The notes under the pieces are model-generated. The model was not told the DNA's origin. It was given only the letters and a program-made list of their open reading frames with translations, and did not search any database. A stretch of 64,000 nt of DNA from Cellulomonas soli (lineage in GTDB: Bacteria > Actinomycetota > Actinomycetes > Actinomycetales > Cellulomonadaceae). Position numbers and translations under genes: made by a program. Location of the stretch: the NCBI RefSeq assembly GCF_013409305.1, contig NZ_JACBZJ010000001.1, forward strand, positions 1,984,001 through 2,048,000. The letters are read 5' to 3'. This document shows positions 33,629-48,113 of the stretch, in pieces (within the stretch, counting starts at the first letter, position 1; each line of letters starts with the position of its first letter).

Positions 33629-34918
33629 CTACGCCTCGGCGTAGTCGACGTACGGGTGCGCGAACTCCCGCCCCCAGAGCGTGGCCCGTTCGGCGCGGGT
33701 CAGCCCCACCTGGTCGCACACGTCGTCCCAGCCGTCGACGACCGCCGCACGGACGCGGCCGATGTTGTCGATGGCCTGCGCGTCCGTCAGCAGGAACTCG
33801 CCGGCGACCTCCCGGCACAGCCGCAGCTGGCTGGCGCGTCGGCCGTCGGCGGTGATGCCGATCGCCTGCGTGGCCGTGTTCGTCGAGCGGCGCTGCGGGG
33901 CGATGTCGTAGGCCGGTGTGAGCGACAGGCGCGTCCCGTCCCAGAAGGCCGCGTGGTTGCGCAGGTGATCGTCGGTGTTGCCGACGAGCACGTTGATCAC
34001 CAATCGTGTGAACAGCTCACGGAGCGTGCCGGGCACGTCGGCCCATGGTCCGGTGCGGACCTGCTGCGCCATGAGCGCGTAAGAGCCGTAGCGGGCGCTT
34101 GACTCCGACAGGCCCAGCACGGTCAGCATCGACAGCATCTGCCTCCGGGCGATGCCCGCCTGCCCGTCGGGTCCGGCCAGCGCCTGCCGGTCGAACCGTT
34201 CGACGAGCAGCACGTCCTTGCCGCCGGCGTGTACGACGGACACCGGTGCGACGTCGGCGCCCGCCCGTGCGGCGAGCAGCATCGCCGCACCTTCCGCCTT
34301 GACCACGGGCCGGTCGTCGGTGCTCGAGGAGAACTTGGCGATCAGGTGTCGGTCACCGTCGTGCAGCAGCGCCTTCGGGCGTGCGCCACCGATGCTCGTG
34401 CCGTGCCCGACGGCAGCCAGGGCGGGGGGCAGGTGCTCACCGCGCTCGACGAGTGCGGCCCCCTCCATGAGCTGGTCCAGGGACGCGCGCTGCTCGCGCG
34501 GCACGTACTGCGTCGGTGACTCCTGGAAGTCCAGTGCGCCGATGCGGTCGCTGCCTGAGCGGAGCAGGTAGGTGACCTCGGACAGATGGACGTCCGGGTC
34601 GTGGCCGACCTCGAGGTTGATGACACGGCGGCCCCACGCGTCCGGTGCGGCGTCTCGCAGGCACCCCGCGAGCGCCAGCGGGTCACGGTGGGCCACCCGG
34701 GTCGGGTCGAGCACCTCGGAGCCCAGTGGCAGCTCGGGCGGGTAGAGGGAGATCGCGTCCGGGCGGGCGCGGTAGCTGGCGGCGTACCGGAACGCGAGCA
34801 CGGGCTCGCCGGCCAGGGCCGTGCCCGTGGCCTGCAGCACACCGGCGACGACGGGCGACGTGGCTCCGGGCAGCCACACCCACACGTACGCGCGGGTGCC
34901 GGGCTGCTCAGAAATCAT
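33629..34918 (-). CDS. hipA: HipA-type Ser/Thr kinase toxin
   Basis: 429 residues. HipA family features: N-terminal couple domain with ISLYPPELPLG, the GGARPKALLHD glycine-rich loop (~170), K in HLIAKFSSS, catalytic INVLVGNTDDHLRNHAAF (~315) and metal-binding LTPAYDIAP. HipA kinases phosphorylate aminoacyl-tRNA synthetases and cause dormancy. All catalytic residues look intact. Overlaps the hipB gene by 11 bases and is held in check by it. Confidence 0.9.
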   Translation of the reverse strand: MISEQPGTRAYVWVWLPGATSPVVAGVLQATGTALAGEPVLAFRYAASYRARPDAISLYPPELPLGSEVLDPTRVAHRDPLALAGCLRDAAPDAWGRRVINLEVGHDPDVHLSEVTYLLRSGSDRIGALDFQESPTQYVPREQRASLDQLMEGAALVERGEHLPPALAAVGHGTSIGGARPKALLHDGDRHLIAKFSSSTDDRPVVKAEGAAMLLAARAGADVAPVSVVHAGGKDVLLVERFDRQALAGPDGQAGIARRQMLSMLTVLGLSESSARYGSYALMAQQVRTGPWADVPGTLRELFTRLVINVLVGNTDDHLRNHAAFWDGTRLSLTPAYDIAPQRRSTNTATQAIGITADGRRASQLRLCREVAGEFLLTDAQAIDNIGRVRAAVVDGWDDVCDQVGLTRAERATLWGREFAHPYVDYAEA

Positions 34919-36876: not shown

Positions 36877-37041
36877 TCAGTCGCGGCGGTCGCCACGCCG
36901 GTCGCGGCGGTCCTCGCGGCGGTCGCTGCGGCGGTTGACGCCGTGCGAGACGACGGCCGCGGTGCCGACGACAGCGGCCGTGCGGGCGACGGGTGCGCCG
37001 ATGACGCCTCGGCGGGCGACGCGTGCTGCGCGCAGTGGCAT
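36877..37041 (-). CDS. Small basic protein with D-R-R repeat tail
   Basis: 54 residues. MPLRAARVARRGVIGAPVAR then a hydrophobic TAAVVGTAAVVSHGV and a tail of DRR/EDR repeats. It begins one base after the stop of the DUF6325 gene, so is translated with it. Small proteins of this design (short hydrophobic core plus charged tail) commonly follow DUF6325 genes in actinobacteria; function unknown. The tail DNA is a run of CGGCGGTC-type repeats. Confidence 0.6.
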   Translation of the reverse strand: MPLRAARVARRGVIGAPVARTAAVVGTAAVVSHGVNRRSDRREDRRDRRGDRRD

Positions 37042-37042
37042 G

Positions 37043-37507
37043 TCAGTTCCCTTCCTCGGAGGCCAGCTCGGCCTCGATGGATGCGGCGATCGCCTGGATC
37101 GGGATGCGCCCGGCGGCGATGAGCTGACCGCCGGCGCGTCGTGCGGCGGCACCGAACGGCGCTGCCCACAGGTTCTCGTAGACCAGCACGCCGGCCACCG
37201 AGTCGGGCTCCATGGCCGCGGCGAGCATGTCGACGTCCTCGGCGGCGAGCAGCTCGGCGATCTGCGTCTCGAACACGCGGATCTCCGCCTCGTCCTCGAG
37301 GTCGTCGATCTCCACCGCGTCCACGGAGCCGTCGGCGTTCTTCTGGAGCACCAGCAGGTCGAGCACGCGGATCGTGCCGGCCTCGGACAGACGGGCGAGC
37401 TCGTCGACGACCTCACCGGTGAAGTTCTGCTGACCTGCCGGGAACTCCAGCATCAGGTAGTCGACGGGGCCCAGCTCGTCGAGCGTGGGCTCGCGGTCGT
37501 CGTTCAT
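37043..37507 (-). CDS. DUF6325 family protein
   Basis: 154 residues with the family pattern: LGPVDYLMLEFPAGQQNFTG, VVDELARLSEAGTIRVLDLL, VLQKNADGSVDAVEIDDLED and the C-terminal AGVLVYENLWAAPFGAAARR, then GRIPIQAI. Cytoplasmic, function unknown, often encoded near DUF1269 proteins and stress genes. GAGGAGC precedes ATG 37507. Third gene of the sulfatase operon. Confidence 0.85.
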   Translation of the reverse strand: MNDDREPTLDELGPVDYLMLEFPAGQQNFTGEVVDELARLSEAGTIRVLDLLVLQKNADGSVDAVEIDDLEDEAEIRVFETQIAELLAAEDVDMLAAAMEPDSVAGVLVYENLWAAPFGAAARRAGGQLIAAGRIPIQAIAASIEAELASEEGN

Positions 37508-37525
37508 GTCGTGCTCCTCTCCGTG

Positions 37526-37565
37526 GGTCGTGCGGGGTCGTGCGAGGTCGTGCGAGGTCGTGCGG
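37526..37565. repeat. Four tandem copies of a 10-bp unit GGTCGTGCGR
   Basis: Perfect units at 37526-35, 37536-45, 37546-55 and 37556-65, then a degenerate fifth. They occupy the 73-base gap between the sulfatase stop and the DUF6325 start, just upstream of the latter's ribosome site, and could affect read-through or translation of the distal genes. Confidence 0.85.
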
Positions 37566-37580
37566 GGGCGTGCACCGGGG

Positions 37581-40484
37581 TCAGCCGGCGGCCCCGTGGG
37601 CGAGCGCCGCTTGGGCGGTCGCCTCGTGCAGGTCGAGCTCGGCGTCGTGCGCACCCGGTGCGAGGTCGAACACCACCTGGCGCACGGTGCCGGTGAACGC
37701 GTACGGCGCCCGGTCCTCGTAGTCGAGGTCGACCACGCCGCCGTTGTCCCGGCCGATGTCCAGGCCCGCGTAGGTGCTGAACAGCAGACCGACGGTGCGC
37801 GGGAGGTCGCCCTCGCCGATCTGCTGGTCGTCGGCCCACAGGGTCACGTGCCCGCCGGTGCCCGGGACCGCCTTGTCGGCGTCGAAGCGCATGGTCAGCG
37901 TGACGTCGCCCGTGGGGACGGGCACCGTGGAGGTCTGCCGGTAGGTCTCCACCCCGAGGAACTGGTAGGTGTGGTTGAGCAGCCCGTTCTCGTCGATCCA
38001 CAGGGCGAAGCCCCCGATGAAGTCCGCGAACGCCACGAGCACCCCCTGGGCGCCGCTCTCCGGCACGTGCACGGCCGCCTCGATGGCGTACGACCGGCCG
38101 TAGATGCGCGGGATCATCGTGGTCTGCACGTTCTGCACGTCACCGGCGAAGGTGTACCGGGTCCGCGTCGGCATCGGCGGCAGCATCCCGAAGAACACCG
38201 CGAACCCACCGAGCAGCGGCAGCACGCGGTGACGTTCGGCCTCCGCCCAGAACAGCTCGACCAGCTCGGCGACCTTCTCCGGACGGTCGGCCGCCAGGTC
38301 GTGCGCCTGCGAGAAGTCGTCGGGCAGGAAGTACAGCTCCCACACGTCCGCGTCGGGGTCCCAGCCGCTGCCCGGACCGAACCGCGACAGGGTCGCCGCC
38401 GAGAAGTCCCAGGGCATCTTGTCGAGCTTGGTGCAGGCCCACCAGCCGTCCTTGTAGATCGCCCGGCTGCCGTACATCTCGAAGTACTGCACGGTGTGCT
38501 GCTCGTCGGCGTCCGGTGCGTCGAACGTGTACGCGAAGCTGGTGCCGTCCAGCGGCTCCTGCCCGATCCCGTCGACCACCGTCGGCGTCGGCAGCCCCAC
38601 GACCTCCAGGATCGTGGGCACCACGTCGATGCAGTGCGTGAACTGCGTGCGCAGGGCCCCGCCGCCGGCGATCCGCCTCGGCCAGGCGATCACCATCGGG
38701 TCACGGGTGCCGCCCAGGTGCGAGGCCATCTGCTTGCCCCACTGGAACGGCGTGTTGTTCGCGTGCGCCCAGGCCGCGGAGAAGTGCGGTGCGGTGTGGA
38801 AGCCGCCCAGCTCCGCGATGCCGCCGTACTTGTCGATGAGCTCCGTCTGCTCCTCGGCGTCGAGGACGAGTCCGTTGAAGAACGTCGTCTCGTTGAACGA
38901 CCCGGTGACCGTGCCCTCCATCGAGGCGCCGTTGTCGCCCCAGATGTAGATGACCAGGGTGTTGTCCAGCTCGCCCATCTCCTCGACGGCGTCCAGCAGC
39001 CGGCCCACGTTCCAGTCGGCGTTCTCCGAGAACCCGGCGAACACCTCCATCTGCCGCGCGTACAGCCGCTTCTCGGCGTCCGAGAGGCTCTCCCACGCCG
39101 GGTAGGCCTCGGGGCGCGCGGTCAGCTCGGCGTCCTGCGGGACGACACCGAGCCGCTTCTGCCGCTCGAGCGTCTTCTCCCGGTAGACGTCCCAGCCCTC
39201 GTCGAACTGCCCGGCGTACCGGTCCGCCCAGGCCTTCGCCACGTGGTGCGGCGCATGCGTGGCGCCCGTGGAGTAGTACACGAACCACGGCTTCTCGGCG
39301 TCCTGCGCGCGCACGGCGTGCAGCCACTCGACGGCCTTGTCGGTGATGTCGTCCGGGAAGTAGTACAGCGCGCCGTCGGTCCCCTCGGGGACACCCAGGG
39401 TGGAGTTGTCCTGCGTGATGATCGGGTCGTACTGCCCGGCCGCACCGGTGAGGAACCCCCACCAGTGGTCGAACCCCCAGCCCGTGGGCCAGTGGTCGAA
39501 GGACCCGGCGGCGCCCATCTCCCGACCGGGGGTCATGTGCCACTTGCCGAAGCCGCCGGTGACGTACCCGTTCTCCTTGAGGATCCGCGGCAGCGCCGTG
39601 CACGCCTTCGGGCGGGTGCCGGTGTAGCCGGGGAAGGGTCCGGGGAACTCGGCGATCCCGCCCATGCCGACCCGGTGGTGGTTGCGTCCGGTGAGCAGCG
39701 CGGCACGCGTCGGGGAGCACACGGCGGTGACGTGGAACCGGTTGTAGGTGACGCCCTGCTGCTGCACGCGGGTCAGGTTCGGGGTGCGGATCTGGCCGCC
39801 GAACGTGTCCGGCCCGCCGAACCCGGCGTCGTCGATGAGCACGATCAGCACGTTCGGCGCGTCGTCCGGTGCCTTCACCGGTGCCACGAGCGTCCAGTCG
39901 CCGACCGAGTCGTCGATGGTGTGCCCGGCCACCCCGCCGAACGGCTTGTCCGGCACGGGCAGGACCGTGCGGTCCGGGGTGAACTTCCCCATGGCCTCGG
40001 CGAGGGCGTCCTTGAGCTCGTCGATGCCGCCCTCGTCCGACTCGACGACGGACCGTAGCGGTGCACCGGCCAGGGCCTGCGAGACCGCGAGCCGCTCGTC
40101 GGCGGGGAACACGCCGATCACCACGGCGGTGCCGTCCTTGAGTGCCGCCCCGACCTGATCCTGGATCGCACCGGTCAGCCGGTGGCCCGCGAACCGACCG
40201 ACCACCGCGCCGGCCGCGGCGCCCACGGCCACCGAGGCGAGCATCGCCGGGGCGAACAGGCCGACGAGCACCCCCACGCCACCACCCCAGCCCGCACCGC
40301 GGCGGCCCAGGTGGTTGCCGGTGTCCAGCAGGCGCGGGCTGCCGTCGGCGTCCTTGCCGACCAGGATCATCCCGTGACTGTGCAGGTCCCGGGCGGCGAC
40401 CTTGTCGGCCAGCGACCGGAACTCCCGCTCGGCGAGGTCCACGTCCTGGTACCCCGCGACCATCAGCATCTTCGTCTCACTCAT
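37581..40484 (-). CDS. Cys-type sulfatase with N-terminal DUF1269-like membrane domain
   Basis: 967 residues, much longer than ordinary sulfatases. Residues ~1-165 are a DUF1269-like module: MLMVAGYQDVDLAEREFRSL, a glycine-zipper membrane helix pair (~66-100) and VVIGVFPADERLAV. From ~205 a complete sulfatase: NVLIVLIDDAGFGG (metal Asp 218, 219), the formylglycine motif C-S-P-T-R with Cys 256, GFGKWHMTPG, HAPHH and IWGDNGAS. The C-terminal ~220 residues are a beta-sandwich-like domain. The Cys-type motif fits the adjacent radical SAM maturase. No Sec signal is seen. Start overlaps the maturase stop by eight bases. Confidence 0.9.
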   Translation of the reverse strand: MSETKMLMVAGYQDVDLAEREFRSLADKVAARDLHSHGMILVGKDADGSPRLLDTGNHLGRRGAGWGGGVGVLVGLFAPAMLASVAVGAAAGAVVGRFAGHRLTGAIQDQVGAALKDGTAVVIGVFPADERLAVSQALAGAPLRSVVESDEGGIDELKDALAEAMGKFTPDRTVLPVPDKPFGGVAGHTIDDSVGDWTLVAPVKAPDDAPNVLIVLIDDAGFGGPDTFGGQIRTPNLTRVQQQGVTYNRFHVTAVCSPTRAALLTGRNHHRVGMGGIAEFPGPFPGYTGTRPKACTALPRILKENGYVTGGFGKWHMTPGREMGAAGSFDHWPTGWGFDHWWGFLTGAAGQYDPIITQDNSTLGVPEGTDGALYYFPDDITDKAVEWLHAVRAQDAEKPWFVYYSTGATHAPHHVAKAWADRYAGQFDEGWDVYREKTLERQKRLGVVPQDAELTARPEAYPAWESLSDAEKRLYARQMEVFAGFSENADWNVGRLLDAVEEMGELDNTLVIYIWGDNGASMEGTVTGSFNETTFFNGLVLDAEEQTELIDKYGGIAELGGFHTAPHFSAAWAHANNTPFQWGKQMASHLGGTRDPMVIAWPRRIAGGGALRTQFTHCIDVVPTILEVVGLPTPTVVDGIGQEPLDGTSFAYTFDAPDADEQHTVQYFEMYGSRAIYKDGWWACTKLDKMPWDFSAATLSRFGPGSGWDPDADVWELYFLPDDFSQAHDLAADRPEKVAELVELFWAEAERHRVLPLLGGFAVFFGMLPPMPTRTRYTFAGDVQNVQTTMIPRIYGRSYAIEAAVHVPESGAQGVLVAFADFIGGFALWIDENGLLNHTYQFLGVETYRQTSTVPVPTGDVTLTMRFDADKAVPGTGGHVTLWADDQQIGEGDLPRTVGLLFSTYAGLDIGRDNGGVVDLDYEDRAPYAFTGTVRQVVFDLAPGAHDAELDLHEATAQAALAHGAAG

Positions 40485-41694
40485 GACCTGCTCCTGTGTC
40501 GGGTCCGGCGGTGTACGAGTCCATGACGTCGTCGGCGTAGCGGCCCTGACGCACGAGGTCAGCCATCGCGCGCATGGGTCCGTCGACGTGCCGGAAGAAG
40601 GCGAGGTAGCCCTCGCAGAGGTAGTTCACGGGCGGCTCACCGTCACCCGCGGGGACGAACCGGTCCTTGGGGCACCCGCCGTTGCAGGCGAAGAGCACCT
40701 CGCACTCGCGGCACCGCGTCGGCAGCGTGTCGCGCTTCGCCTGGCCGAACGCGACCTGGCGCGGGCTGTCGACGATCTGCAGCAGCGTGCGGCCGTCGGC
40801 CAGGTTGCCGATCAGGTGCTCCGGCGAGACGAAGTGGTCGCACGAGTAGACGTCCCCGTTGTGCTCGAGCGCGACCGAGCGTCCGCACGTCTCGGCCTGC
40901 ACGCACAGGCCCGCCTCCGGCATGCCGAGCCAGTGCGCCAGGGCCGTGTCGAACGACTGCACGAAGACCGTCCCGACGTCGTGGCGCACCCACTCCTCGA
41001 ACACCTCGACGAGGAACTGCCCGTAGGCGTCGCCCGTCACCGTGCGCCGGCTGACACCGGCACCCTCCCGTTCGACGATCGGGATCAGCTGCACGAACGT
41101 GGCGCCGAGCTCGTCGCGCAGGAACCGGTACACCTCGGTGCCGTGGCCGGCGTTCGCCGCGTTCACGGTCGTCAGCGCGTTCCAGTCGACCTCGTGCCGG
41201 CGCAGCACGTCGATCCCGCGCACCACCCGGTCGAACGTCGGCTTGCCGCCCTTGTCGGTGCGGAACGCGTCGTGCATGGCGCGTGGGCCGTCGATCGAGG
41301 CCCCCACGAGGAAGCCCTCGCGGGCGAGGAAGCCGCCCCAGCGGTCGTCGAGCAGCGTCGCGTTCGTCTGCAGCGTGTTGAGCACCTGCTGGCCGGGCAT
41401 CGCGTACGCGCGCTCCAGCTCCAGGACCCGCTCGAAGAACTCGAGGCCCATGAGCGTGGGCTCACCGCCCTGGAACGCCACGACGACCTCGTCGGCACCG
41501 CGATGGGCCTCGAGCAGCCCGCTCACGTAGCGCTCGAGCACCTCGTCGTTCATCCGGAACGAGCTACCGGCGTACAGCTGCTCCTTCGCCAGGTAGAAGC
41601 AGTACTCGCAGTCGAGGTTGCAGATCGCACCGACGGGCTTGGTCATCACGTGGAAGGCGCGCGGCACGGCTCGTGCCGGGTCGGCAGTCAGCAT
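40477..41694 (-). CDS. Anaerobic sulfatase-maturating radical SAM enzyme (anSME)
   Basis: 405 residues. The radical SAM cluster CNLDCEYC (Cys 25, 29, 32) follows a typical FHVMTKPVGAI; next come VVVAFQGGEPTLMG and TNATLLDDRW. A SPASM domain in the last third carries the auxiliary-cluster cysteines: CVQAETCGRSVALEHNGDVY, then SCDHF and CRECEVLFACNGGCPKDRF. anSMEs oxidise the active-site Cys of sulfatases to formylglycine without oxygen. Gene order and overlap with the sulfatase make it the dedicated maturase. GAGGGAGG precedes ATG 41694. Confidence 0.92.
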   Translation of the reverse strand: MLTADPARAVPRAFHVMTKPVGAICNLDCEYCFYLAKEQLYAGSSFRMNDEVLERYVSGLLEAHRGADEVVVAFQGGEPTLMGLEFFERVLELERAYAMPGQQVLNTLQTNATLLDDRWGGFLAREGFLVGASIDGPRAMHDAFRTDKGGKPTFDRVVRGIDVLRRHEVDWNALTTVNAANAGHGTEVYRFLRDELGATFVQLIPIVEREGAGVSRRTVTGDAYGQFLVEVFEEWVRHDVGTVFVQSFDTALAHWLGMPEAGLCVQAETCGRSVALEHNGDVYSCDHFVSPEHLIGNLADGRTLLQIVDSPRQVAFGQAKRDTLPTRCRECEVLFACNGGCPKDRFVPAGDGEPPVNYLCEGYLAFFRHVDGPMRAMADLVRQGRYADDVMDSYTAGPDTGAGHE

Positions 41695-41745
41695 CAGGCC
41701 TCCCTCGTCCGTGCTCCCGATGGTCGTCCGGTCGGGTCGTGGGCG

Positions 41746-41767
41746 AATCCTCCGGATCGGATGAACG
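41746..41767. promoter_or_regulatory. Dyad motif ATCCTCCGGATCGG-ATGA (copy 1)
   Basis: AATCCTCCGGATCGG followed by ATGAACG lies between the divergent maturase and LuxR genes. The same pattern ATCCnCCG(G)ATC-n-G(A/G)TGA occurs at 44178-44200 and, inverted, at 44735-44757. Likely binding site of the LuxR protein encoded here. Confidence 0.6.
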
Positions 41768-41905
41768 TGGGGGACGGAGGGCGAGGAGCCCGGTCCACGG
41801 CGACAGCCGGTGGCCGCGGTGCCACCATGGCCGGAGGGTGGTGCGCGAGCGGGCTCCGCGCACCCCAGGGCCGGGGCGGAGCGGCTCCGGACGCAGGGAG
41901 ACGAC

Positions 41906-44170
41906 ATGAACCTGTCGCAGGGGGCGGAGCCGCCCCCGGCACTGCCTGCCCCGCCTGCCCTGCCGGGGCCGACCGGGCAGGGCACGGCCTGGGTGGCGCG
42001 GACGCGGCTGCTGGCGCGCCTGTCGGCGGCGGCCCGGACGCCGGTCGTGCTGGTCAGCGCCCCGGCCGGGTCGGGCAAGTCGACCCTCCTGCACCAGTGG
42101 TCGCACCTGGACGGGCGTGCGTGCGTCACCGTCTCGGCCACGTCCTGGCTGGACGACCCCGCACGGCTGGCCCGTGCCCTGGTCGACGCCTTCGAACGCA
42201 TCGGGCCACCCGGATCCGACCCCCGCGCCGGTGTCACCGCGCAGGAGCCGGGCTGGGCGACCGTCGTCCTGCCCGGGCTGGCCCGTCTGGCCGTGACCCG
42301 GCTGTGCGACTTCGTCCTCGTCGTGGACGACGTGCACCTGCTGCAGGCGGCGGCCTGCCACGAGGCGCTCGCGGCCGTCGCGGACGCCGTGCCGGAGGGG
42401 AGCCAGGTCGTGCTCGCCACCCGTGAGGAGGCACCCCGGTACCTCGCCCGGGCGCGCGCGGCGGGCCGGCTGCTGGAGATCGAGCCCGACGACCTCGCCT
42501 TCGACCTCGAGGAGGCCGCGGCGCTCTTCGCGGGGCTCGCGGTGACCCTCTCCGACGAGGAGCTCGCCGAGACGGTCGAACGGGCCGAGGGCTGGGCCGT
42601 GGGGCTCTACCTGCACGCGCTGTCGATGCGGGGCCACGGCACGGGCGGCCCCCGGGACGGCGGGCCGTCCCGTCGGGGACGCGACGGCTTCGTCTTCGAC
42701 TACATCGGCACGCAGGTGCTCGACGGCCTGGACCCGCGGACGCGGCACTTCCTCACCCGCACCGCCCCCCTCGAGGAGCTGCGGCCCGCGGTGTGCGACG
42801 CGATCCTGGACCGGCAGGACTCGGTCGCGGTCCTGCCCGGTCTGTGCGAGAGCCTGCAGCTGGTGATCCCGGTCGACGACTCCGGCCGCCGGTTCCGGTA
42901 CCACCACCTGCTGCGCGACGCGCTGCTGAGCGAGCTGACCCGCGAGTCCCCGGCCGAGCTGGACGACCTGCACCGCCGGGCCGCGCGCTGGTTCGCCGAG
43001 GCCGGCGACCTCGACCAGGCCGTACGGCACGCCCGGGCGGCACGCGATCACCGGCTGCTGGCCGACGTCCTGTGGCCCGCGCTGCCCGACTGCCTGACGA
43101 GCGGCTCCCTCGACCGGCTCGCCGGATGGCTGCGCGGCATCTCCGACCACGACCTGCAGCAGGAGCCCCGGCTGACGGCGGCGGCGGCCTGGCTGGCGCT
43201 GCAGCAGGGCGACGCCGAGCGGATGGACCGCTGGATCCTGCACGCCGAGCGCCTGGCCGGCATCCACTGGCGGGACCTCGCGCGCACCGACGAGGTCACC
43301 GCGGCGCTCGCGTGCGCCGAGGCCGTCGTCGGCCGGGGCGGGCTCGCCGACAGCATCGCGCTGAGCGAGGCGGCGCTGGCCGGGCTGCCCCCGGACTCGG
43401 GCTTCCGCAGCGCGGCCGCGTTCGTGCGCGGCGTCTGCCTGACGTTGCAGCGCGACCTCCCGGCCGGGCTGGAAGGTCTGCGCACGGCCGAAGGGCTCGC
43501 GCGGGCGCTGGGTCAGCCGCTGCTCGTCGCCGACTCGCTGTCGTGGCAGGGACTGCTCGCCCTCGCGTCCGGTGACCAGCGACGCGGCACCGAGCTCGTG
43601 CTCGAGGCGAGAAGCCTCATCGGCGACCACCACCTCGAACGGCTCGCGACGTCGGCGCACTGCGTCACGGCGCTGGCGCTCGTCCTGGCCCTGAACCACG
43701 ACCCGAGCGCCGCACGTGTCCTGGGCACGGCCCGTCGCCTGACGGCGGGGACGGACGGGATCGCACCCTGGTTCGCGGTGTGCGGGCGGCTCGTCCAGGC
43801 CCGGGCGGCGGTGGCCCTCGCCGACGGCTCCCTGGCCCGGCGGCTGATCGGCGAGGCCAAGGTGCACCTGACCGCCGACCTGCGGGACACGCTCGTGAGC
43901 GACTTCCTGGCCGAGGCGCAGCAGGCGCTCACGATGCTCTCGGTCGACGGCGTCTCGGCCGCCACCCTCTCGCCCGCGGAGATCCGTGTGCTGCAGTTCC
44001 TGCCCAGCCACCTGACGATCCCGCAGATCGGTGAGCACCTGTGCCTCTCGCCGCACACGGTGAAGTCGCACACGCTGGCGATCTACCGCAAGCTCGGGGT
44101 CTCCTCGCGCGACGAGGCCGTCGAACGCGCCCAGCGACTCGGTCTGGTCGAGGGGCCGCCGCGAGACTGA
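41906..44170 (+). CDS. Large LuxR-family (LAL/MalT-like) ATP-dependent activator
   Basis: 754 residues. STAND ATPase: Walker A SAPAGSGKST at 51-60, Walker B FVLVVDDVHLLQA, sensor VVLATRE, then a winged-helix (~275-350) and ~300 residues of TPR-like helical repeats. The C-terminal LuxR HTH (~690-745) has LSPAEIRVLQFLPSHLTIPQ, IGEHLCLSPHTVKSHTLAIY, RKLGVSSRDEAV. MalT-type proteins activate on binding an inducer and ATP. Divergent from maturase/sulfatase and followed by a SulP gene, so it probably governs this cluster. AGGGAG precedes ATG 41906. Confidence 0.9.
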   Translation: MNLSQGAEPPPALPAPPALPGPTGQGTAWVARTRLLARLSAAARTPVVLVSAPAGSGKSTLLHQWSHLDGRACVTVSATSWLDDPARLARALVDAFERIGPPGSDPRAGVTAQEPGWATVVLPGLARLAVTRLCDFVLVVDDVHLLQAAACHEALAAVADAVPEGSQVVLATREEAPRYLARARAAGRLLEIEPDDLAFDLEEAAALFAGLAVTLSDEELAETVERAEGWAVGLYLHALSMRGHGTGGPRDGGPSRRGRDGFVFDYIGTQVLDGLDPRTRHFLTRTAPLEELRPAVCDAILDRQDSVAVLPGLCESLQLVIPVDDSGRRFRYHHLLRDALLSELTRESPAELDDLHRRAARWFAEAGDLDQAVRHARAARDHRLLADVLWPALPDCLTSGSLDRLAGWLRGISDHDLQQEPRLTAAAAWLALQQGDAERMDRWILHAERLAGIHWRDLARTDEVTAALACAEAVVGRGGLADSIALSEAALAGLPPDSGFRSAAAFVRGVCLTLQRDLPAGLEGLRTAEGLARALGQPLLVADSLSWQGLLALASGDQRRGTELVLEARSLIGDHHLERLATSAHCVTALALVLALNHDPSAARVLGTARRLTAGTDGIAPWFAVCGRLVQARAAVALADGSLARRLIGEAKVHLTADLRDTLVSDFLAEAQQALTMLSVDGVSAATLSPAEIRVLQFLPSHLTIPQIGEHLCLSPHTVKSHTLAIYRKLGVSSRDEAVERAQRLGLVEGPPRD

Positions 44171-44177
44171 TCGGCCC

Positions 44178-44200
44178 GATCCACCGGATCGGGTGATGCG
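44178..44200. promoter_or_regulatory. Dyad motif ATCCACCGGATCGG-GTGA (copy 2)
   Basis: GATCCACCGGATCGG followed by GTGATGCG, starting eight bases after the LuxR stop and upstream of the unknown gene at 44275. Fifteen of the central bases match copy 1. Confidence 0.6.
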
Positions 44201-44274
44201 GGCGCCCGCGCCGGCTGGTGGCCTGGACGTGCGCCGCCCCCGTGACGAGCCCGGCGCGCGGGGGGCGTGCCGCG

Positions 44275-44712
44275 ATGAGAGCACCACGTGGCGGACGGTC
44301 GCAGGCCGTGCCCGACCACCCCCGGGCGGGCTTCCCCGGAGTGGCGTACGTGCAGCTGGCACGCGGGCTGCGGTACGCCCGCGGCGCCCTCCGTCTGGAG
44401 CAGCTCGCGCCCGCGACGATCTGGGTGCTCGACGAGCCGACGACCACCGTCGGCCAGATCTCCACCGGCGCCTTCCTCGACCTGTGGTGGCAGCCGCACG
44501 AGGGGGTGGGGGCACCGTCGTCGGTCGCCCGGCTGCGGCTGCTCGGCGCCGACACGCACCTGCTCGGGGACCCGCTCCTGCGGGTCCGGTCGCCGCGGAT
44601 CACCGGCTCGGGCCTCACGTACGACGTCGAGGTGCTCGCCGGGGTCGTGCCCGGCAGGGCCGGCGGGTGCGTCCTGTTCATCAACCCGCCGGTCGGGCCC
44701 ACGAGCCATTGA
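44275..44712 (+). CDS. Unknown protein of the sulfatase cluster
   Basis: 145 residues, MRAPRGGRSQAVPDHPRAGF..., then a beta-rich region (GVAYVQLARGLRYARGALRL, TIWVLDEPTTTVGQISTGAF, LRLLGADTHLLGDP, LTYDVEVLAGVVPG, CVLFINPPVGP). No signal peptide or membrane helix. I do not recognise the family. Sits between two copies of the cluster motif, between luxR and the permease. GTG 44218 is an alternative start. Confidence 0.6.
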   Translation: MRAPRGGRSQAVPDHPRAGFPGVAYVQLARGLRYARGALRLEQLAPATIWVLDEPTTTVGQISTGAFLDLWWQPHEGVGAPSSVARLRLLGADTHLLGDPLLRVRSPRITGSGLTYDVEVLAGVVPGRAGGCVLFINPPVGPTSH

Positions 44713-44734
44713 CGTGCGGACGGTCGCCAGCGGG

Positions 44735-44757
44735 GCGTCATCCAGATCGGTGGATGC
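44735..44757. promoter_or_regulatory. Dyad motif, inverted (copy 3)
   Basis: On the minus strand this reads GCATCCACCGATCTGGATGA, matching the other two copies with one base missing in the centre. It is 56 bases before the SulP start, a normal activator position. Confidence 0.55.
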
Positions 44758-44812
44758 GACCCGTGGCCGCCGCGCTCCAGACTCGGAGCAGTCGCACCTG
44801 ACGGAGGCACCC

Positions 44813-46576
44813 ATGCCCGGTGGCGAGGACCGACCCGGCCCGAGCGTGCGACGGACGGTGCGCGACGCCTACGGCCGCCGTTCCCCGTTCGCCTCGTCCG
44901 TCCGGGAGCCTCTGGCCCGTCGACTCGTCCCGGTGGTGACCTCGGTGCGCGGGTACTCCCGCAGCCGCCTCCAGCAGGACGTGGTCGCGGGTCTGACCGT
45001 GGCCGCGCTCGCGCTGCCCGCGGGCATGGCGTATGCCGAGCTCGCCGGCCTGCCCGTCACCGCCGGCCTGTACGCCCTGCTGCTCCCGGTGCTGGTCTAC
45101 GCCGGGATGGGTGCCACCCGTCGGGGGGTGATCGGCCCCGAGGGCGCCGTCGCGCTGCTGGTCGCCTCCGCGCTCGGACCGCTCGCGGTCGCCGGGTCGG
45201 CCGAGTACTCCACGCTCGCCGCCGCCCTGGCGATCGGCGTCGGGTGCCTGTTCCTGGTGGCCAGGCTGCTGCACCTGGGGTGGCTCGCCGACTACTTCTC
45301 GCAGTCGGTGCTCGTCGGCTACATCTCGGGCGTCGCGGTGCTCATGGCCCTGGGTCAGCTCACCAAGCTCACGGGCGTCTCCAGCAGCCTCGAGGGGGAG
45401 CTGCGGGCGGCCGCCGACACGCTCCTGCACCTCGGCGACGCGAACGTGTGGACCGTGGCCGTCGGTGTCGTCACGCTCGTGATCCTCGTCGTCCTGCCGA
45501 GGTTCGCCCCGCGGGTGCCTGCCGCCCTCGTGGTGGTGGTCCTGGGTGTGGGCGTCTCCTGGGCGCTGGACCTGCAGGCGCACGGGGTCGCGCTGACCGG
45601 ACCCGTGCCGCCCGGGCTGCCCGACCTCGCGCGACCGGAGGTCGGCGCGGACGAGATCCGGTCGCTGGTGATGCCGGCGCTGGCCATCTTCCTGGTGAGC
45701 TTCGCCGACGCGATCCTCATCGCCCGCTCGTTCGCCGCCAAGCATCGCGAGACGGTCGACGCCGACCAGGAGCTGCTCGCCTACGGCCTGGCCAGCGTGG
45801 CGTCCGGGTTCAGCCACGGGATGCCGATCGGGGCGAGCGGGTCGCGCACCGCGGTCAACGACTCGATGCGGGCGACCAGCCAGGTCAGCGGGTTCGTCGC
45901 CTTCTCGGCCATCGCGCTGATCCTGCTGGTGCTCACCGAGCCCATCCAGTACCTGCCCTCGGCCGTGCTGGGCGCGGTGATCCTCGTCGCGTCGCTGCGC
46001 CTCGTGGAACCCGCGCAGTGGCGTGCGCTGACGCGCAGCAGCCGCGCCGAGGTGGTCATCGCCGCCGTCACCGCGGTGTTCGTCGTCACGATCGGGGTGC
46101 TCGCCGCGATCGCCGTGGCCGTCGTGCTCTCGCTCGTCGACGTGATCCGACGGATGGCCGCCCCCGAGGACGCCGTGCTCGGCTGGTCCGAGGAGGACGG
46201 CCGGTTCGCCGACGTGCGCACCCGCCCGGACGCGGTCGTCACGCCCGGGGTCGTGGTCTACCGCCTCCAAGGCCGGTTGTTCTTCGCGAACGCGCACTTC
46301 TTCAAGCGGCGCATCTGGGCGGCCGTCGACGGCGCCCCCCGCCCCGTGGCCACCGTCGTGCTCGACGCCGGCGGCATCTCCGGCATCGACGCCACCGCCG
46401 TGGACGCCGTCGCGGAGGTGCACGCCGGCTGCCTGGCACGCAACATCACCCTGGAGGTCGCCCGGGCGACCGCCGACCTGCGCGAGCACTTCGACTCCAC
46501 CGGGTTGACCGACGTCATCGGCGCCGGGCACTTCCACCCGACGGTGGTGGCCGCGGTCGCGGCCGCGACCACGTGA
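44813..46576 (+). CDS. SulP-family sulfate permease with STAS domain
   Basis: 587 residues. About 12 membrane helices from residue ~60; signatures LQQDVVAGLTVAALALPAGM and AYAELAGLPVTAGLYALLLP near the start, GLASVASGFSHGMPIGASGSRTAVN in the middle. A C-terminal STAS domain (~470-580) has VVVYRLQGRLFFANAHFFKR and VVLDAGGISGIDATAVDAV. SulP proteins move sulfate, bicarbonate or other anions; next to a sulfatase, sulfate is most likely. GGAGG five bases before ATG 44813. Confidence 0.92.
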   Translation: MPGGEDRPGPSVRRTVRDAYGRRSPFASSVREPLARRLVPVVTSVRGYSRSRLQQDVVAGLTVAALALPAGMAYAELAGLPVTAGLYALLLPVLVYAGMGATRRGVIGPEGAVALLVASALGPLAVAGSAEYSTLAAALAIGVGCLFLVARLLHLGWLADYFSQSVLVGYISGVAVLMALGQLTKLTGVSSSLEGELRAAADTLLHLGDANVWTVAVGVVTLVILVVLPRFAPRVPAALVVVVLGVGVSWALDLQAHGVALTGPVPPGLPDLARPEVGADEIRSLVMPALAIFLVSFADAILIARSFAAKHRETVDADQELLAYGLASVASGFSHGMPIGASGSRTAVNDSMRATSQVSGFVAFSAIALILLVLTEPIQYLPSAVLGAVILVASLRLVEPAQWRALTRSSRAEVVIAAVTAVFVVTIGVLAAIAVAVVLSLVDVIRRMAAPEDAVLGWSEEDGRFADVRTRPDAVVTPGVVVYRLQGRLFFANAHFFKRRIWAAVDGAPRPVATVVLDAGGISGIDATAVDAVAEVHAGCLARNITLEVARATADLREHFDSTGLTDVIGAGHFHPTVVAAVAAATT

Positions 46577-47561: not shown

Positions 47562-48113
47562 TCAGTCCGCGATCACGGCGGCGGTGTCGAGCGTGTGCTG
47601 CGCGCGTCGGCGCGCACGGGCGAGGCGTGAACGTGCGGCCTCGGCGGTGATGCCGAGCAGGGCGGCCGACTCGGCCGGGGTCAGGCCGTTCCAGGCGACG
47701 AGCAGCAGGACCTCCCGCTCGTCCGCGGTCAGCACGGCCAGGACCCGACGCAGCTCGTCGCGACGTCCGAGCGCGTCGATCCGCTCGTCGACGGCCGCCC
47801 AGTCGATGTCGTCGTCGACCGGCCACCCCGCGGGCCGGGGTCGGCTGCGCAGGTGCGCGCGGATGACGTTCCGCGCGATGCCGTAGAGCCACGGCAACGC
47901 CGAGCCCGACGCGTGCGGGCGGACCCGGACCCGCGCCGAGACCGCAGCCACGAACACCTCGGCGAGCAGGTCCTCCGCCGCCTGGGCGCCGACGCGACGC
48001 GACAGGAACCGGTGCACGGCGCCGGAGTGGCGCTCGAACAGGGGTCCCATCGCCTCGGGGTGCAGCGGCAGCCGCAGCAGCAGCTCGTCGTCGGACGGGG
48101 TGTCGGGGTTCAC
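47562..48113 (-). CDS. ECF-type sigma factor
   Basis: 183 residues: region 2 (PLFERHSGAVHRFLSRRVGA, AEDLLAEVFVAAVSARVRVR, ALPWLYGIARNVIRAHLRSR) and region 4 (LTADEREVLLLVAWNGLTPA, ESAALLGITAEAARSRLARA). Followed after 14 bases by the CU044_5270-type membrane partner. Confidence 0.9.
   Translation of the reverse strand: MNPDTPSDDELLLRLPLHPEAMGPLFERHSGAVHRFLSRRVGAQAAEDLLAEVFVAAVSARVRVRPHASGSALPWLYGIARNVIRAHLRSRPRPAGWPVDDDIDWAAVDERIDALGRRDELRRVLAVLTADEREVLLLVAWNGLTPAESAALLGITAEAARSRLARARRRAQHTLDTAAVIAD

Follow-up and report, generated by a model that had tools for sequence, protein, structure and literature searches.

A divergent seven-gene locus with a DUF1269-fused arylsulfatase and its maturase in Cellulomonas soli: known families in an apparently undescribed combination

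The subject of this analysis is a group of seven genes on two divergent strands at positions 36877..46576 of the window, which is the whole 64,000-nucleotide stretch analysed (C1:1984001-2048000, GC content 72%) of the single-contig, 4.26-Mb genome of Cellulomonas soli (G000). The minus strand carries, in order, an anaerobic sulfatase-maturating enzyme (anSME; radical SAM and SPASM, 405 aa, 40477..41694), a Cys-type arylsulfatase fused to a DUF1269 domain (967 aa, 37581..40484), a DUF6325 protein (154 aa, 37043..37507), and a basic protein of 54 aa with a (D/E)RR-repeat tail (36877..37041). The plus strand carries a LAL-type (MalT-like) regulator (754 aa, 41906..44170), an orphan protein (145 aa, 44275..44712), and a SulP-family permease with a STAS domain (587 aa, 44813..46576); the anSME and LAL genes are separated by a divergent intergenic region (41695..41905). 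All seven genes and their families were present as named in an initial annotation of this DNA, with starts corrected to 41694 (anSME), 37507 (DUF6325), 37041 (basic protein), 41906 (LAL), 44275 (orphan), and 44813 (SulP). The anSME stop and the sulfatase start overlap by 8 bp, and the start of the basic-protein gene lies one base past the DUF6325 stop. Third-position GC of the coding type was found in the frames of six of the seven genes; the 54-aa frame, whose long open reading frame (ORF) overlaps DUF6325, failed this filter, and its gene call is based on L006, L008, and L009, each of which has a conserved homologue immediately following DUF6325. The ORFs of the 145-aa and 54-aa proteins gave no Pfam or NCBIfam match at E ≤ 0.01. 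The locus is real, coherent, and modular, a sulfate-ester locus of known families that is new in combination and not in kind.

The sulfatase (PF00884, E 2e-65) has the sulfatase fold and the conserved active-site residues of formylglycine-dependent S1 sulfatases. The CxPxR motif is present as CSPTR with the convertible Cys (C256), and in an alignment of 50 chosen proteins, C256, D218, D219, K314, H316, H413, D517, N518, and K584 are unchanged in 50/50 sequences. Most of these residues align with counterparts in Pseudomonas aeruginosa arylsulfatase AtsA (PDB 1HDH), which is the closest solved relative by sequence and by fold and is listed as S1_4 in an excerpt of PMC5066984. Unlike AtsA, the cluster sulfatase is extended by a DUF1269 domain at the N-terminus and by a beta region at the C-terminus, and an anSME is co-encoded. 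It is the sole PF00884 match of the genome, in a search that covered PF00884 alone among sulfatase types. The DUF1269 domain (PF06897) spans residues 64-142 with 30.2 bits against a gathering score of 26.9, and no signal peptide was recognisable by eye.

This locus is not alone in having the fusion, as both domains are found in 119/120 of the relatives listed, and an architecture of ~967 aa is common to the DUF1269-arylsulfatases of Nostocoides, Pedococcus, Nocardioides, Mycobacterium, and others. For comparison of the surroundings, the best 80 of 97 related loci were used; unlike the locus described here, most of them are without anSME, LAL, orphan, and SulP genes. At least five genomes behind the 80 loci have an unfused sulfatase (L060, L068, L070, L073, and L082), called so because the match starts only at about residue 167-170. 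The best sulfatase segments of the five nearest loci are 82-85% identical. A plasmid search with the sulfatase matched 105 records, every one at <60% identity, and the 12 matches listed all begin at residue 158 or later. P0085 was considered as a natural DUF6325-DUF1269-sulfatase fusion and rejected, the protein being visibly frame-disrupted. At L014:478-2850, an open frame with DUF1254, DUF1214, and a sub-threshold DUF1269 match adjoins a DUF1269-sulfatase, and on this sequence DUF1269 may be an N-terminal module common to different proteins. Among the genes next to DUF1269-sulfatases are those for channels and for membrane or uncharacterised proteins (ion channel, CLC, DUF2252, MIP, DUF2254, Sap/SfLAP, and stand-alone DUF1269 in L013, L015, L020, L034, L041, and L062).

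The anSME is over the curated cut-off of its family (TIGR03942, 450.8 bits against 349.45), has the radical-SAM CxxxCxxC motif as CNLDCEYC, and matches SPASM PF13186 with 33.0 bits against 21.5; its nearest solved structure is the anSME 4k36. An excerpt of PMC3920027 names two routes to formylglycine, FGE (formylglycine-generating enzyme) and anSME. FGE as a second maturase of the genome was rejected, as the sole PF03781 match (G000:C1:1608259-1608753, L117) is without the CxxxxC Cys pair of high-scoring FGEs, and the anSME is therefore the only recognisable maturase of the genome. Together with the overlapping frames and the single PF00884 protein, this bears out the earlier description of the cluster anSME as a dedicated maturase, which is well supported as a reading of the sequence. 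As in known anSME-sulfatase pairs (solved anSMEs 4K36-4K39), a maturase of the same family adjoins its sulfatase; unlike them, the gene overlaps a DUF1269-fused sulfatase and stands in a bacterial family with an anSME over cut-off in 6/121 genomes. None of the nine other genomes of the genus listed (0/9) has an anSME over cut-off. In G046 and G047, the anSME adjoins an unfused sulfatase.

The anSME survey used 43 of the 80 loci, with many further mycobacteria left out, and the follow-on maturase survey used 31 of these 43 loci plus G000 (left out were L017, L019, L020, L021, L026, L029, L032, L042, L043, L064, L070, and L082). The resulting 32 genomes have this sulfatase or a close relative: 29 are fused and 3 match only from about residue 170, the latter being three of the five unfused genomes above. 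A PF03781 protein with the Cys pair was found in 17/32 genomes and not in 15/32, based on the best PF03781 match per genome (read in 17 + 9 genomes, the other 6/32 being without a match at E ≤ 1e-45) and with several of the genomes being incomplete metagenome-assembled genomes. An anSME over cut-off is present in 15/15 genomes without a Cys-pair FGE versus 3/17 with one (Fisher p 1.5e-6, ignoring relatedness of the genomes), so that bearers of a Cys-pair FGE are mostly without an anSME (14/17). In each of the 9/15 FGE-less genomes where the best PF03781 protein was read, it is without the Cys pair, and PF03781 counts taken as FGE counts can thus mislead.

Conservation in relatives, which had been set beforehand as able to refute a joint system, was checked with a divided outcome. 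The full seven-gene set was met again only in Nostocoides sp. F2B08 (L006), within 10.2 kb and in a changed order, where the local anSME is split into several frames and another contig has an intact anSME next to a different sulfatase; pairs and triples of the genes recur far above simple chance estimates. Pedococcus L008 has, in a row, sulfatase, DUF6325, basic protein, Na/H exchanger, anSME, and SulP. An anSME lies ≤5 kb from a P0003-like sulfatase in 11/19 anSME genomes and ≤5 kb from a SulP gene in 8/19 (0.27 expected), and SulP lies ≤10 kb from the best sulfatase in at least 10/44 genomes (0.77 expected), the last read by eye among the SulP matches listed for the 43 loci plus G000; SulP counts are lower bounds. 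Of the 32 genomes of the bacterial family with a P0003-like sulfatase, 18 have a DUF6325 gene ≤5 kb from such a sulfatase (10 of the 18 at ≤1.5 kb), with about 0.3 expected on assumed gene numbers. The short flanks of 29 unfused sulfatases of the family contain a LAL gene in 14/29 and DUF6325 in 9/29, versus 0/31 for both in control loci that were not matched for taxon; these were 31 of 35 loci, with L002-L005 dropped as they had entered by DNA similarity to the query region, and the dropped L002 holds a DUF6325 gene. Mycobacterial synteny and shadow frames prevailed in unbiased neighbour clustering, which served only to choose families for these targeted tests. From L006, L008, L150 (see below), and the Anaerolineae loci L014 and L025, it follows that the full combination is rare and its blocks are modular.

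The regulator has a GerE match (LuxR-type helix-turn-helix, 37.8 bits against 23.5) at the C-terminal end of a MalT-like protein and a P-loop ATPase with a visible loop, APAGSGKST, where AAA_16 gives 29.5, under its cut-off of 32.6. It is not MalT proper (NF003420, 241.6 bits against a cut-off of 537) and is 51-52% identical to proteins of L006 and L150. An 18-base motif, ATCCWCCGGATCGGRTGA, is found at 41747-41764 in the divergent region (copy 1) and at 44179-44196 on the plus strand upstream of the orphan gene (copy 2), and a gapped, weaker relative (copy 3) is on the minus strand at 44738-44755, upstream of SulP. Two motif matches within 3 mismatches were reached in 2/100 shuffles of the window, and the genome has no other match within 2 mismatches, the pattern itself being derived from these sites. 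A match of at least 16/18 between two such regions arose in 8/300 first-order Markov resamplings and is thus not very rare. At comparable places in L006, L008, L009, L010, and L150, no good match was found (the best being 14/18, upstream of the L006 sulfatase). The motif was accordingly rejected, on the resampling and on these relatives, as proof of one regulon; the shared promoter motif proposed earlier, with its two copies and a gapped relative, is weakly supported, and the earlier label of the regulator as the activator of the locus is not borne out. Control of both strands by the LAL protein is regarded as likely.

DUF6325 was matched by PF19850 with 39.4 bits against a cut-off of 23.4. 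The family is very large (7998/7998 candidates scored are relatives) and present in 57/121 genomes of the bacterial family, and most members therefore need no tie to sulfatases. A profile comparison of DUF6325 with DUF1269 (hhalign) gave a probability of 48% and an E of 1.8e-4 for the single comparison, with the alignment colinear around the missing hairpin, and two of the listed DUF6325 proteins carry the source name 'DUF1269 domain-containing'; this gapped match and the names suggest that DUF6325 may be a hairpin-less relative of DUF1269. A second DUF6325 gene of the genome lies at G000:C1:3787005-3787406, away from the only PF00884 sulfatase. At window positions 37526-37575, a direct repeat of four 20-nt copies in 10-bp register (GGTCGTGCGA type) fills most of the gap between the sulfatase and DUF6325 genes. 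The orphan has 5 database matches including itself, the closest named relative being 73% identical, in Cellulomonas soli; its model (pLDDT 82) predicts a small beta-rich fold. Relatives of the orphan are present in L006, L014, L025, and L150, and among 396 genomes of the order, the orphan was found only in L150 and G000. For L014 and L025, the orphan relative is upstream of the sulfatase and, like the basic protein, ends in a (D/E)RR-type tail. The permease has the SulP architecture (PF00916, 291.5 bits against 23.2; STAS, 64.3 against 22.6).

For the open-access literature searched, no paper was found on DUF6325, on a gene cluster of sulfatase maturase and sulfate permease, or on an arylsulfatase with a LAL family regulator, nothing was found on an anaerobic sulfatase in Cellulomonas, and no description was found of the DUF1269-sulfatase fusion, which is common in databases. 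The combination thus appears to be undescribed, as the initial annotation had it.

The locus is best read, with somewhat better than even confidence, as a sulfate-ester utilisation unit for low oxygen, with a cytosolic, membrane-associated aryl-sulfatase that is probably switched by the LAL regulator. Formylglycine formation without O2 is the established chemistry of the anSME family, and the anSME would turn Cys256 of the co-encoded sulfatase into formylglycine in this way. The sulfatase would most likely reside in the cytosol at the inner membrane face, as it has no recognisable signal peptide and its DUF1269 domain has a glycine-rich hairpin, and would cleave a small aryl or alkyl sulfate ester. 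Ligand sensing and switching of the locus probably fall to the divergent LAL regulator, SulP probably moves the pathway anion (sulfate, or the ester itself), and DUF6325, probably a soluble distant relative of DUF1269, may partner the DUF1269 domain.

Several results weigh against the low-oxygen sulfate-ester unit. The glycine-rich hairpin that would insert into the membrane is modelled with low confidence (block means 31-49). SulP scored 373.6 against the sulfate-permease model TIGR00815, just under the cut-off of 380.45, and is for this reason filed as a SulP-family permease and not as a sulfate permease, so the sulfate transport claimed earlier is not upheld. A P0003-like sulfatase is present in 9/31 FGE-type control loci, and maturase linkage is not special to anSME because FGE genes adjoin such sulfatases too; SulP is present in 1/31 control loci (L134). 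Matches to window proteins among the 80 related loci, many of which end at contig ends, number only 9 for anSME, 9 for SulP, 6 for DUF6325, and 4 for LAL-like proteins, the linkage estimates ignore phylogeny and use rounded sizes, and the promoter motif has no good match in the relatives checked. In L150, from another family, LAL(-), orphan(+), and SulP(+) lie together without a sulfatase in 19 kb; with this locus, and with most of the 80 loci lacking the set, the earlier term 'self-contained' is not supported.

L150 also favours the foremost alternative, which we consider possible but unlikely, that a sulfate-ester operon of anSME, sulfatase, and DUF6325 and an anion-transport unit of LAL, orphan, and SulP adjoin back to back but are independent and not under common control. 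The weak promoter motif points the same way, as do L034, L042, and L063, where an anSME-sulfatase pair is present and neither LAL nor SulP was matched. Against this alternative, Nostocoides L006 has every part inside 10.2 kb, differently ordered, LAL adjoins unfused sulfatases of the family in 14/29 loci, and distant lineages show SulP linkage both to anSME and to sulfatases. A more far-reaching form of the single unit, held quite tentatively and thought unlikely, is a membrane-tethered one in which the DUF1269 hairpin would dock the sulfatase at the inner membrane beside SulP (importing sulfate esters or handling freed sulfate), DUF6325 would be a soluble DUF1269 partner, and the choice of anSME or FGE would suit a single, widespread cytosolic sulfatase to life without or with oxygen; if this is true, SulP-anSME-sulfatase linkage would be a new marker of sulfate-ester import. 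It is improbable that the enzyme is chiefly another formylglycine hydrolase of the alkaline phosphatase superfamily (e.g., a phosphonate or phosphate diester hydrolase) with SulP carrying an unrelated anion, since AtsA is the closest solved relative by sequence and fold and the match to the multifunctional enzyme 2vqr is much weaker (34 bits), even though the superfamily is promiscuous, the assigned substrate is an inferred one, and the PehA model matches with 69.7 bits, far under its cut-off of 900.

This actinobacterial genome combines a single PF00884 sulfatase with a single oxygen-sensitive maturase and has no Cys-pair FGE that could be recognised, and the locus is therefore a clean case in which to ask when such cells remove sulfate from organic matter. 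It also connects sulfate-ester metabolism with DUF1269, DUF6325, and the 145-aa orphan, all three of them uncharacterised families. Near the locus, a HipA-like gene (PF07804) lies at window positions 33629-34918, and an ECF-type sigma factor gene is at 47562-48113, about 1 kb past the SulP gene.

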